Below, in pieces: positions 9,375 through 23,578 of a stretch of DNA of 40,381 nt. The translations under genes and the position numbers were made by a program. Every line of letters starts with the position of its first letter. Position 1 is the first letter of the stretch. The notes under the pieces were generated by a model. It made no database searches. It saw nothing but the letters and a program-made list of their open reading frames with translations, and was not told the origin of the DNA. This DNA comes from Hydrotalea sp. (lineage in GTDB: Bacteria > Pseudomonadota > Alphaproteobacteria > JASGCL01), in NCBI GenBank assembly GCA_030054115.1, contig JASGCL010000013.1, forward strand, positions 1-40,381. Reading direction: 5' to 3'.

Positions 9375-10709
9375 TTATTTGCCCGCGCTCTTGACGAGGT
9401 TTTTTAACTTTGCCAAGGCGGCATCAAGTTGCGGGTCTTTTTTCGGCAGGTCGCCAGGTTTTTGGTCGGCCGGGTTTACCAATTCGACCGGTTCCTTAAC
9501 ATCGATATCTGGTTTGATACCAACCCCCTGAATCGATTTACCGGACGGCGTGTAATATTTTTGCGTGGTCAATTTCATCGCGGTGCCAGATTTCGATAAT
9601 GGATACACCGATTGCACCAACCCCTTGCCAAAACTGGTTGTCCCCATGACAACGGCGCGTTTTTGGTCTTGCATCGCGCCGGCAAAAATTTCGGAGGCCG
9701 AAGCCGACCCGCCATTCACCAACACCACCAATTGCGCGCCGCCAGAAATATCGCCCGGGGTGGCAAGGAAACGGCGTTCACTGCTTTTGTCGCGGCCACG
9801 GATGGAAACAATTTCGCCCTGGTTTAAGAAATCATCGCTGAGGGTAATCGCCTGGTCGAGCAAGCCGCCCGGGTTGTTGCGCAGGTCAAGGACAAAACCC
9901 TTTGGCATGACGCCGCCATTTTTTGCCTTGAGGTCGTTAAAAATTTTTGTCACGCCCGGCGCGGTTTGTTCGGTGAAGCCTGTCATGCGGACATAACCCA
10001 AGCCGCCGGGTTTCAATTCGCCCTTAACCGATTGGACAACAATTTTTTCGCGCTTCAGCGACAGGGTAAAGGGTTCGGGCAAGCCCTGGCGAATAAAGGT
10101 AACATTGACCGTTGTGCCGGGCGCGCCGCGCATTTGGCGCACCACCTCGTCTATGTTTTTGCCCTGTACCGGTTTGCCATCGACCTTCATAATGAAATCA
10201 CCCGATTTCAGGCCGGCGCGGGCGGCCGGCGTGTCGTCTATCGGCGCGACAATTTTAACATAGCCAGAGGGGTCGGCGGCGACCTCCATCCCCAAGCCGC
10301 CAAATTGGCCACTGCTTTGTTCGTTAAAGGCTTTGAAATCTCGTTCATTAAAATAGGCCGAATAGGGATCAAGCCGCGCCAACATGCCGTCAATCGCCTT
10401 TTCCACCAAGTCGGTTGCCGAGATTTGTTCGACATAATCAGAACGGACGCGATTAAAAACCTCGCTAAACACCGACACCATGTCGTAAAATTGACCGTTG
10501 TCGCCCTTGCCCGTGTTATCAGATGCTTGTTGCGCAACCGATGGCGCGGGTTTAAATGCCAACAGCGCCACCACCGGGGTTAAAATCAGCACCAATAAAA
10601 TAGATAAGCTAACCGCAACGCCGCGCAAAAACCCCAATCGATAACTGGTGGTGTGATTTAATTTTGCCGTTGCTTGCAGTTTTCCTGCTTTGCGTTTTAA
10701 TAATGACAT
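9375..10709 (-). CDS. ctpA: S41-family carboxy-terminal processing protease
   Basis: A 444-residue C-terminal processing protease acting in the periplasm. A basic N-terminus followed by one hydrophobic helix (about residues 28-52) anchors or exports it. A PDZ domain spans about 140-215 (GLGMEV, GLKSGD). The S41 catalytic part follows, with SASASE at 335-340 carrying the nucleophilic Ser and Lys362 in SFGKGLVQ. Homologues trim or degrade envelope proteins including cell-wall hydrolases, and an NlpC/P60 hydrolase is encoded three genes downstream. A promoter-like sequence lies at 10778-10806; no ribosome binding site is evident. Confidence 0.95.
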   Translation of the reverse strand: MSLLKRKAGKLQATAKLNHTTSYRLGFLRGVAVSLSILLVLILTPVVALLAFKPAPSVAQQASDNTGKGDNGQFYDMVSVFSEVFNRVRSDYVEQISATDLVEKAIDGMLARLDPYSAYFNERDFKAFNEQSSGQFGGLGMEVAADPSGYVKIVAPIDDTPAARAGLKSGDFIMKVDGKPVQGKNIDEVVRQMRGAPGTTVNVTFIRQGLPEPFTLSLKREKIVVQSVKGELKPGGLGYVRMTGFTEQTAPGVTKIFNDLKAKNGGVMPKGFVLDLRNNPGGLLDQAITLSDDFLNQGEIVSIRGRDKSSERRFLATPGDISGGAQLVVLVNGGSASASEIFAGAMQDQKRAVVMGTTSFGKGLVQSVYPLSKSGTAMKLTTQKYYTPSGKSIQGVGIKPDIDVKEPVELVNPADQKPGDLPKKDPQLDAALAKLKNLVKSAGK

Positions 10710-10935: not shown

Positions 10936-10964
10936 TTGACTTTTATAAAAAAATAGACTATATG
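10936..10964 (+). promoter_or_regulatory. Promoter of the structured RNA
   Basis: TTGACT, a 17-base A/T-rich spacer and TATATG lie just before the structured RNA, giving a start near 10971. It points away from ctpA and has no normal-length gene downstream, which supports a dedicated RNA transcription unit. Confidence 0.6.
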
Positions 10965-11142
10965 AGGGGTAAGCTAAGTTATTAGGGTTCGTGAAAGCAA
11001 ATAGCCTCTTTACCTAAAGATAAAGAGGGTAAACGCGCTTTTCGAAGATATTGGTTAGGCCAATAGATTTGAAAAGCGAGGAGAGGCGTTAAGTTGTATC
11101 AAGCACCGTTGATAAAGTATAAAAGCAGAAAGGCAGGTAATC

Positions 11143-11193
11143 ATGAAATACTTAGGCATCATGTTCTTGTGGCAAAAACGTTTGCCAGCATAA
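11143..11193 (+). CDS. 16-codon ORF in the structured RNA
   Basis: ATG to TAA encodes MKYLGIMFLWQKRLPA: a hydrophobic middle and a basic end. A purine-rich AGGCAGG lies at a suitable distance before the ATG. A 6-bp hairpin covers the second half of the ORF, so translation would compete with folding. It could be a leader peptide or a small membrane-active peptide; no family is recognised. Confidence 0.35.
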   Translation: MKYLGIMFLWQKRLPA

Positions 11194-11287
11194 CAAGACG
11201 ATTTATTAAAGTTGATTTTAAAAACCAGTTTTAATAAATAACATAAAATAACAATGATTTAATTGTTTAAATGGGATCATCTGTTTT

Positions 11288-11327
11288 AGCCCTCTCAAGA
11301 TAGTTATCTTCGAGGGGGCTTTTTTTT
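11288..11327 (+). terminator. Strong intrinsic terminator of the structured RNA
   Basis: AGCCCTCTCAAGATA pairs with TATCTTCGAGGGGGCT (15 pairs, one bulged C, one G-U), a two-base loop separating them, and is followed by a long T run. One of the clearest terminators in the window, on the plus strand. Confidence 0.9.
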
Positions 11328-11361
11328 GCCCTGACGCAAAAAAAAAATTGCGCCAAATAAT

Positions 11362-12126
11362 TTATTTTTTTAAAAAATCGTCGATGGTGTAAAAACCGGG
11401 GGCTTGTTGGCACAGCCACAGGCCGGCCCGCACCGCGCCAACCGCGAACATCTTGCGGTCCTTGGCATGGTGGCTTAGGGTGATGACATCATCCTCGCCG
11501 TCAAAAACAATGCTGTGGTCGCCGATGACCTCGCCCTCGCGTTTTGATTCATAATTTATTTTTATCGTCGGGTTATGTTGTTCCATAACACGGCCAAGCA
11601 TTAGCGCGGTGCCAGATGGTTTATCCTTTTTATGAACGTGATGCGTCTCGCTTATGGTAAGGCGGTAATTGGTAAAAAAACCAGCCGCCAGGCCGGCGAT
11701 GCGCGCCAGCCCCGCAACACCAAGGCTGGTGTTGGCCGACAACATGGTGGGGGTTTTTGCCGACAGGGTTTTTATCGCCGCCACCGCCGCCTCCCCCAAT
11801 CCGGTAACGCCGCATAAATAACCCGCGCCATGTTGTGCCGCCAATTGCGCATGTTGCACCACGGCCGATGGGGTCGAAAAATCAATCACCAATAATTTTT
11901 TGTTATTATTTGCGGCGGCATTAGTGATGGCGTCCGCCGCATCATCGGTAAAAATTATCTTATTGGCATTTTTTTGTGCGATTGCTTTGCCCGCCAAATC
12001 ACTGCCACGGCGCACCACCGCGGCGGTTAAGGTTGCGGCATCGCCGACGATGTTTTTATCCTGCGCCGCCGCCACCAGCAACTGGCCCATGCGGCCACCG
12101 GCACCCAAGATGATAATATGTATCAT
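11362..12126 (-). CDS. dapB: 4-hydroxy-tetrahydrodipicolinate reductase
   Basis: A 254-residue NAD(P)H-dependent reductase of the lysine/diaminopimelate pathway. The N-terminal Rossmann fold has GAGGRMG (residues 8-14), DFSTPSAV and GVTGLGE; the C-terminal catalytic and tetramerising domain has SANTSLGV and the signature ETHHVHKKDKPSGTA with the catalytic His pair and Lys. It overlaps the end of glmM by four bases, so translation of the two is probably coupled. It closes the kdsD-lptC-lptA-glmM-dapB run and supplies the cross-linking diamino acid of peptidoglycan. Confidence 0.96.
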   Translation of the reverse strand: MIHIIILGAGGRMGQLLVAAAQDKNIVGDAATLTAAVVRRGSDLAGKAIAQKNANKIIFTDDAADAITNAAANNNKKLLVIDFSTPSAVVQHAQLAAQHGAGYLCGVTGLGEAAVAAIKTLSAKTPTMLSANTSLGVAGLARIAGLAAGFFTNYRLTISETHHVHKKDKPSGTALMLGRVMEQHNPTIKINYESKREGEVIGDHSIVFDGEDDVITLSHHAKDRKMFAVGAVRAGLWLCQQAPGFYTIDDFLKK

Positions 12127-18476: not shown

Positions 18477-18761
18477 ATGATTAAATCTTTTAAAGATAAG
18501 GAAACCGCAAGGGTTTTTGCTCGTGAATTTTCAAAAAAATTTTCTGAAAATATAGCAAACAAAGCATTCAAAAAAATGCTGATAATGGACAACACGCGGT
18601 CGTTGACGGATTTAAAAAATCCACCCGGTAATCGTTTGGAAAAATTATCGGGGGATAGACAAGGGCATTATTCTATCCGCATCAATGACCAATATCGTAT
18701 TTGTTTTTCATGGGGCGAAGATAATCATTTGTATGATGTGGAAATAATCGATTATCATTAA
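18477..18761 (+). CDS. higB: HigB toxin (RelE superfamily)
   Basis: A 94-residue ribosome-dependent mRNA endonuclease of the HigB/RelE group. The typical pattern is present: MIKSFKDKETARVF at the start, LTDLKNPPGNRLEKLSGDR in the middle and the terminal strand pair YSIRINDQYRICFSW followed by DVEIIDYH. Toxin comes before antitoxin, the usual hig order. AAGG lies about 12 bases before the ATG. It starts 80 bases after tRNA-Thr, a common landing place for accessory DNA. Confidence 0.92.
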   Translation: MIKSFKDKETARVFAREFSKKFSENIANKAFKKMLIMDNTRSLTDLKNPPGNRLEKLSGDRQGHYSIRINDQYRICFSWGEDNHLYDVEIIDYH

Positions 18762-18783
18762 ATGGTGAGTATTTTTTTAAGGC

Positions 18784-18812
18784 TTGACGTCCACCTTTTT
18801 TTTCTGTATATT
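18784..18812 (+). promoter_or_regulatory. Promoter between higB and higA
   Basis: TTGACG and TATATT are 17 bases apart, with the predicted start about 16 bases before the higA ATG. The surrounding A/T-rich half-repeats (GTATATTGTATGTATAG) are a possible HigA operator. An own promoter would let antitoxin be made in excess of toxin. Confidence 0.5.
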
Positions 18813-18834
18813 GTATGTATAGCGTATAATAATC

Positions 18835-19209
18835 ATGAAAAAACACACGCCCCAATATATTCCATTGCCCCATGTTGGCGAGCTGTTGTTCGATGAATTT
18901 ATGGAGCCATTAAACCTATCGGGCAATCAATTGGCGAAGCTCATTGGTGTGCCGGCCAACCGCATCAACGATATTGTGCGCGGTCGCCGCGGCATGACCG
19001 CCGACACCGACCTGCGACTATGCCGTTATTTTAGCATGAGCGAGGGGTTTTTTTTGCGATTGCAAAATGATTTGGATATGAGATTAGCAAAACGAAAAAT
19101 CGCCAAGGAATTGACACGCATCAAACCGCGAAAAATGCCCAAGGATATGGCATCGGGGATTCCATCCGTAATTCCATTGAGCGCAGAAGCCAGCCGCCGC
19201 ATGGATTGA
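18835..19209 (+). CDS. higA: HigA antitoxin (XRE-family regulator)
   Basis: A 124-residue HigA-1-type antitoxin. The block HVGELLFDEFMEPLNLSGNQ begins a helix-turn-helix domain continuing through LIGVPANRINDIVRGRRGMT, then the DTDLRLCRYFSMSEGFF helix. It should neutralise HigB and repress the locus. A basic tail of about 30 residues after LAKRKIAKEL extends beyond the usual approximately 100 residues. The gene begins 73 bases after higB and has no good ribosome binding site. Confidence 0.92.
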   Translation: MKKHTPQYIPLPHVGELLFDEFMEPLNLSGNQLAKLIGVPANRINDIVRGRRGMTADTDLRLCRYFSMSEGFFLRLQNDLDMRLAKRKIAKELTRIKPRKMPKDMASGIPSVIPLSAEASRRMD

Positions 19210-22144: not shown

Positions 22145-23380
22145 TTATTTCACAATATCCAACGCCCTTAATTTTTTCATCAGGGTTGGCATGTCATTGT
22201 CTGATTTCATGCTATTGCACGAACCGCAGAGTAGTTGCAGATTTTCTTGGCCATCGCCACCGCCTTTTTTTCTTGGCACAATATGGTCAAGCGTCAGGTG
22301 ACGAAAGTCAAATAAAATATCACAGGCCACACAACGCCCCTTTTGCCGACCATACAAAATATGTTTGATTTCAACTTTCTTAGTTGGGTTTTTAATCGTG
22401 TCGGTGCGTTCGGGAATATCTTCACGAAAAATTAATTCATTTGCTCTTTTTAACAAATCGCTCTTATCGGCCACCTCCTTATTCAATCTGATTTTTACCA
22501 AATCAAAGGCTTTCGATGAAACATCGATTCCTATCCATTGCCTATCCAATTTTTCGGCCGCCACCATGGTGGTGGCGCAACCGCAAAATGGGTCAAGAAT
22601 AAGGCCTCCCTTGTTACTGCTCGCCTTAATAATTCGCTCCAATAAAGCCGTGGGTTTTTGTGTGGGGTAACCGACTCGTTCTTTTGATTGAGAATTTATT
22701 GGACTAATCTCCCACCAATCCTCAGGTATTTTGCCCTTTTCATTCGGCGCGTAAATTTTATCACTACCATGACTCCCCCATGCTTTGGGTGATGTCCTCT
22801 TGGTTATATCCAAATTGTAGGGTATTCTTACATCATCATCATTAAAAACATAGTTGTTTGATTTTGAATATCTTAAAATAATATCATGCTTATTGGCAAA
22901 ATCTTTTTGCGAACGACCGCCGCCAGTATAACACCAAACAATCTCATTCCTAAAATTTTTATCATCAAAAATACAATCCATTAACAATTTCAAAAAATGG
23001 CTCATGGTGGTATCGCAATGCAAATAAACACTGCCGGTTTCTTTCAAAATTCTTTTTATTTCTAATAAGCGAATGGCCATATAAACCAAATAATATTTAT
23101 TTGATTTATCACCAACCTTCTCTATGCCATTTAAAAAATCGTGCAACACTGGTTGTTCATCGGCTATCAAGCCAACCCATTCTTCCTTGGTATCTTCTTC
23201 ATACCATGTGTCTTTAAAGCTTGCGCCCTCGGCCTGGCCGCCAATCGGCGCATGAAAATGCCGTTTTTTATTAAAGGGCGGGTCGAGGTAAATAAGGTCG
23301 ATAGAGTTGGAATCAATGCCACGCAGAACTTCGATATTATCGCGGCAAAAAATAGTGCGGTTTTTTAATGTTTTTTGCAT
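22145..23380 (-). CDS. DNA methyltransferase fused to a C-terminal HNH nuclease domain
   Basis: A 411-residue fusion. The N-terminal part is an amino-methyltransferase of the beta-class order: motif IV DPPFN (33-37) first, then YPTQKP and motif I LDPFCGCATT (262-271), as in type III Mod and related adenine-N6/cytosine-N4 enzymes. The C-terminal part (about 340-400) is an HNH domain with CVAC (350-353), TLDHIVPRKKGGG (Asp365-His366), ENLQLLC with Asn380, and CGSC (385-388). The start at ATG 23380 is preferred; an upstream in-frame start (23527) adds residues unlike the family. It is encoded 98 bases before dnaN in the same direction. Target sequence and whether the HNH part cuts DNA are unknown. 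Confidence 0.9.
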   Translation of the reverse strand: MQKTLKNRTIFCRDNIEVLRGIDSNSIDLIYLDPPFNKKRHFHAPIGGQAEGASFKDTWYEEDTKEEWVGLIADEQPVLHDFLNGIEKVGDKSNKYYLVYMAIRLLEIKRILKETGSVYLHCDTTMSHFLKLLMDCIFDDKNFRNEIVWCYTGGGRSQKDFANKHDIILRYSKSNNYVFNDDDVRIPYNLDITKRTSPKAWGSHGSDKIYAPNEKGKIPEDWWEISPINSQSKERVGYPTQKPTALLERIIKASSNKGGLILDPFCGCATTMVAAEKLDRQWIGIDVSSKAFDLVKIRLNKEVADKSDLLKRANELIFREDIPERTDTIKNPTKKVEIKHILYGRQKGRCVACDILFDFRHLTLDHIVPRKKGGGDGQENLQLLCGSCNSMKSDNDMPTLMKKLRALDIVK

Positions 23381-23578
23381 TTTGGTTTTCTTATAACATC
23401 TTATAAGGTGATTCGCGGCACTTGCAACATGTTGCTTGCATTGCGGCTTCGTTTCGGCTATGCAAAAAATAACATAACGATGGGTTGATGGTTTTGGTGG
23501 TTTCTGTGACACTTCTGGAGGTCTCACGTTTTATTCTTAAAAAATAAAGCTTGATAAGAAATCACCGCAAAAAAACAT

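Follow-up and report, generated by a model that had tools for sequence, protein, structure and literature searches.

Intrinsically terminated small RNA genes of bacterial intergenic regions are marked by a promoter-like site of their own, a discrete length, a terminator and the lack of a clear ORF. The 652-bp gap between ctpA and dapB in a 40,381-nucleotide stretch of Hydrotalea sp. DNA (the window) shares these features, with a length that is predicted here. It differs from the generic case in that the candidate RNA is longer and more structured than most, in that the host has no detected Hfq or ProQ and in that neither a homolog nor a target was identified. The permuted tmRNA and the RNase P RNA of alphaproteobacteria are of comparable length, yet their covariance models do not match the candidate. 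The dual-function sRNAs SgrS/SgrT and VcdRP likewise are of regulatory size, carry a short ORF inside and have a terminator (PMC4021124, PMC8672173). In Pelagibacter, structured RNAs are enriched in GC-rich intergenic regions (PMC2704228). The candidate RNA is AT-rich with 35% GC compared to 47.6% for the whole window and therefore does not carry this GC-rich signature. We lean towards a lineage-specific, independently transcribed and intrinsically terminated structured sRNA of about 357 nt that is most likely non-coding. This makes the locus a plausible orphan sRNA gene; evidence for a new class is not at hand yet.

Transcription signals and genomic setting

The features of the locus are collected in Table 1. 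The promoter-like site agrees with the sigma-70 hexamers at five of six and four of six positions, i.e. 9/12, and its -10 hexamer lacks the last T. Because of this limited agreement and the missing T the site was not listed by a consensus scanner. With 20 occurrences over both strands in 440 kb of genome sequence, the combination TTGAC-N17-19-TATA is uncommon, not unique. The terminator, which has its U-run on the plus-strand side only, ranks about 12th among 44 strong terminators in the 440 kb and fourth in the window. The preliminary description had named a clean promoter, one of the strongest terminators of the window and a stand-alone plus-strand unit between two minus-strand genes. The rank of the terminator agrees with the second point. 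The third holds as a prediction, in that the plus strand carries both the promoter-like site and the terminator. As for the promoter, its coordinates and the 17-nt spacer were right, while "clean" overstates a 9/12 match. Since promoter-like site and terminator share their orientation, the locus is laid out like an intrinsically terminated sRNA gene, albeit one with an imperfect promoter.

Table 1. Features of the ctpA-dapB region (window positions).
Feature	Position	Strand	Remarks
ctpA	9375-10709	minus	S41 peptidase; 331.6 bits to TIGR00225
Promoter-like site	10936-10964	plus	TTGACT 10936-10941, 17-nt spacer, TATATG 10959-10964
Predicted transcript	10971-11327	plus	about 357 nt, promoter to end of terminator U-run; start (near 10971) inferred
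5' structured domain	10979-11120	plus	closed by long-range pairing; MFE -45.9 kcal/mol
Core fold 1 (P1/P2/P3)	11004-11087	plus	-36.2 kcal/mol (minus strand -27.4)
P1	11004-11010/11081-11087	plus	GCCUCUU pairs with GAGAGGC; encloses P2 and the long P3
P2	11011-11015/11027-11031	plus	part of core fold 1
P3	11036-11046/11068-11078, continued 11049-11055/11059-11065	plus	continues across a symmetric GA/GA internal loop
Core fold 2	11005-11028	plus	8-bp perfect hairpin CCUCUUUA/UAAAGAGG; exclusive with P1/P2
6-bp perfect hairpin	11097-11114	plus	TATCAA/TTGATA
16-codon ORF MKYLGIMFLWQKRLPA	11143-11193	plus	preceded by a weak SD-like site, AAAGGCAGG; probably non-coding
7-bp perfect hairpin	11170-11187	plus	TGGCAAA/TTTGCCA, within the 16-codon ORF; extendable by UCUUG/CAAGA
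A/U-rich helix	11201-11239	plus	14 bp with two G-U wobbles; z -2.6
6-bp perfect hairpin	11250-11267	plus	AACAAT/ATTGTT; fold prefers longer alternative helix 11250-11285
Intrinsic terminator	11288-11327	plus	14-bp stem, one bulge, U8 at 11320-11327; -19.7 kcal/mol, z -4.1
dapB	11362-12126	minus	TIGR00036, 156 bits

The unusual length of the gap, its AT-richness and the lack of relatives speak for a mobile-element remnant or passenger with hairpins that would not be under selection. On the other hand, the genome contains the region only once, no match to it turned up in phages, plasmids, E. coli genomes or viral contigs, and neither an integrase nor a transposase was among the identified neighbours. 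We regard such an origin as quite improbable. A replication origin in the gap was rejected, as no DnaA-box-like site with at most one mismatch was found there.

Elsewhere in the window a HigA-family antitoxin gene (TIGR02607) lies on the plus strand at 18835-19209. It is preceded by an ORF of 94 amino acids, a possible HigB toxin partner (18477-19209 for the pair), with a tRNA-Thr just upstream. An adenine-specific DNA methyltransferase is encoded on the minus strand (22145-23527) beside dnaN; its similarity to CcrM is partial and below the CcrM cut-off.

Structure and strand preference

For 10966-11330 the predicted fold has -101 kcal/mol and a z of -5.1 to -5.2, and no shuffled sequence was equally stable. 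Perfect hairpins were defined by a stem of at least 6 and a loop of at most 14, with 300 dinucleotide-preserving shuffles as background. Not counting the bulged terminator we found six non-overlapping perfect hairpins with a total of 39 bp, while the shuffles had 1.3 on average and maximally five (33 bp). Thus at least five perfect stem-loops in series, as described earlier, are indeed present, and their number exceeds chance. The gap was also compared with other intergenic stretches of at least 250 bp, of which 440 kb (the window and 20 further genome stretches) contained 34. It came out on top with 41 base pairs in hairpins, followed by a runner-up with 29, and was among the best six by fold z. 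Other gaps with high z are plainer: one has a tRNA (L025), one is rich in repeats beside a run of N (L039) and one contains a strong terminator-like hairpin (L028).

Three gaps of this sample deserve mention in their own right. The gap at 9501-10225 of stretch L038 (G000:C5:29501-30225; 725 bp, z -6.4) has several long hairpins including the inverted repeat GATGTTTTATG; it had no match in Rfam and is possibly a second orphan structured element. The highly structured gap at 6836-7326 of L042 (G000:C7:26836-27326) contains a strong terminator and, on the minus strand, a small lysine-rich ORF with histone-like repeats. At 6065-6450 of L039 (G000:C6) the run of N adjoins repeated CCTCAA(G/A)CAGCG-AGCGGTAGGGC units, which resemble a short repeat family.

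In the 5' part of the candidate RNA (10966-11136; fold z -4.6) two core folds compete. The hairpin of core fold 2 lies 3.5 kcal/mol above the MFE in a constrained fold of this segment. In growing transcripts it is predicted to persist until about position 11076, and P1/P2/P3 is predicted from about 11088 onwards. The two folds may constitute a kinetic switch, a possibility beyond what thermodynamic folding of a single sequence can show. In our reading the 5' half of the RNA is a compact domain, in which an early local hairpin may give way to the slightly more stable P1/P2/P3, and the 3' half is an A/U-rich tail that ends in the strong terminator.

The fold of the whole region was not decisive on the strand with a z of -5.1 for plus and -6.1 for minus. 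The core at 11003-11088 is clearly more stable on the plus strand (Table 1). The same applies to P3 with -22.9 versus -14.9 kcal/mol and to the terminator stem, which reaches -16.3 kcal/mol on the minus strand. G-U pairs of the strongest helices are possible on the plus strand only. The minus strand has a slight advantage for two elements, the 11005-11028 hairpin and the A/U helix. Because promoter-like site and terminator are both on the plus strand, we consider this strand the better reading.

The strand data also bear on the notion that the locus is a boundary element. Terminator and hairpins would then act on transcription coming from the neighbours, or the short plus-strand RNA would merely be antisense to read-through from dapB to ctpA. 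This would fit the minus-strand orientation of both neighbours, the big hairpin downstream of dapB, which has no U-run on the minus strand, and a minus-strand fold that is at least as strong for the whole region. It is at odds with the strongest helices, which favor the plus strand, and with the promoter-like site and the terminator that frame the element on this strand. We consider a boundary element unlikely.

Known RNA families and search for relatives

The preliminary description had called the element an unassigned RNA of the size of tmRNA or RNase P RNA without the hallmarks of either, and had proposed a covariance-model search of Rfam. This search bears the description out: with Rfam 15 no family exceeded its gathering score at the candidate RNA, and the whole window yielded two tRNAs only. 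Relaxed thresholds produced partial matches at chance level, mostly in the A/U tail and the terminator. The best of them, CyaR (RF00112), covered the last 95 nt only with a chance-level score of 23.1 bits (gathering score 47; E 0.09). What the two share is a 3' end in which a terminator comes after an A/U-rich single strand.

Housekeeping RNAs were rejected individually. Neither alpha_tmRNA (RF01849, more than 50 bits needed) nor RNase P RNA class A (RF00010, more than 100 bits) matched the locus, and the true genes are located elsewhere in the genome with 173.1 bits for a permuted tmRNA (G000:C2) and 244 bits for RNase P RNA (G000:C7). Small SRP RNA (RF00169, more than 40 bits) did not match the locus either and has a copy elsewhere (47.3 bits). 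The same holds for 6S RNA (RF00013, more than 46.4 bits): a full-length 6S-like RNA is found elsewhere in the genome with 31.2 bits and an E of 1e-4, i.e. under the cut-off, and its CACCCACCUG segment agrees with the consensus.

DNA BLAST against 385 alphaproteobacterial genomes revealed no homolog of the candidate RNA. Eight other genomes matched 26-70 nt of the A/U-rich tail with E of about 1e-3 to 1e-5, which we judged to be chance similarity of low complexity. A single-sequence covariance model of the 5' domain (10979-11120) recovered only itself in 385 genomes of the class and 398 of the phylum, two sets that overlap. A model of the core gave nothing significant, neither in further stretches of the same genome nor in the surroundings of the 29 best ctpA loci. 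With their first look and strict filters these single-sequence searches may miss diverged homologs. The lack of a homolog, and with it of covariation, counts against the sRNA reading.

The source genome is the sole member of its order among the genomes searched. The nearest CtpA is 51-54% identical, and a CtpA search of genome contigs found no close relative. At this distance most sRNAs would presumably be beyond recognition. Because the lineage is so isolated, the absence of homologs is weak evidence.

Coding potential and possible regulation

No ORF of the candidate RNA scores clearly as coding. An ORF of 35 amino acids on the minus strand was rejected as a gene; it has no Pfam or NCBIfam family and a non-coding score. 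An ORF of 46 amino acids starts with TTG at 11094, and an AGGAG ends 10 nt upstream. Its -0.15 bits per codon equal those of non-coding sequence, it belongs to no Pfam or NCBIfam family, and tblastn matches were at chance level only. The SD of this ORF (GGAGAGG, about 11080-11086) overlaps the 3' strand of P1, and 3.5 kcal/mol separate the two competing folds. The 5' domain could thus switch translation, with P1 hiding the SD and the 11005-11028 hairpin freeing it. Together with the spacing of AGGAG to TTG these data suit such a switch; the non-coding score of its ORF, the lack of a family and the TTG start make it very unlikely.

The 16-codon ORF was credited at first with a plausible ribosome binding site and a hairpin over its second half. 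The ORF exists and the hairpin lies inside, but the SD-like site is weak, and the ORF merits no special weight because 27% of the shuffles contained an ORF of that length together with an SD-like site. Its 0.41 bits per codon exceed the intergenic mean of -0.08, yet 16 codons are too short for a reliable score. A dual-function RNA or tiny-peptide mRNA, where the 16-aa peptide is translated as a toxin-like or leader-like product and the hairpin controls translation or is opened by it, could draw on the ATG with the upstream SD-like site, on this score and on the estimate that at least 10% of bacterial sRNAs have a coding ORF (PMC5521070). The frequency of such ORFs in shuffles and their short length argue against it, and there is no homolog to show codon conservation. 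The peptides of SgrS/SgrT and VcdRP were tested (VcdP has 29 aa), whereas the 16 aa of the candidate are within chance and lack conservation. We therefore think that a dual function is rather unlikely.

The mostly non-coding sRNA that we favor would have to act without the common RNA chaperones. Neither Hfq (PF17209) nor ProQ (PF04352) was found in the 95.5% complete genome, while control genomes such as Caulobacter gave Hfq. An Hfq-dependent sRNA was rejected for this reason. The genome nevertheless has a permuted tmRNA, RNase P, SRP and a diverged 6S-like RNA; a gene for an RNase E/G-type ribonuclease is present in the window. Predicted pairing of the candidate with 381 translation starts was not stronger than that of shuffles (mean -27.6 versus -28.1 kcal/mol); these starts were sampled from stretches that make up about 26% of the genome, and the method ignores accessibility. 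In view of the missing Hfq and ProQ and the shuffle-level pairing we limit ourselves to a lineage-specific structured regulatory RNA that is probably non-coding. It might regulate through pairing with other transcripts or through binding a protein, in either case without Hfq or ProQ. It is a long shot that the RNA represents a new bistable class confined to this isolated alphaproteobacterial order, with a 5' domain that switches on a ligand, a protein or temperature and needs neither Hfq nor ProQ.

Sparsely sampled lineages can be expected to yield orphan sRNA candidates, and the present one is well framed rather than a demonstrated class. If transcribed, it would give this poorly sampled lineage of Alphaproteobacteria a structured orphan RNA and would bear on the use of sRNAs by bacteria in which Hfq and ProQ are not detected.
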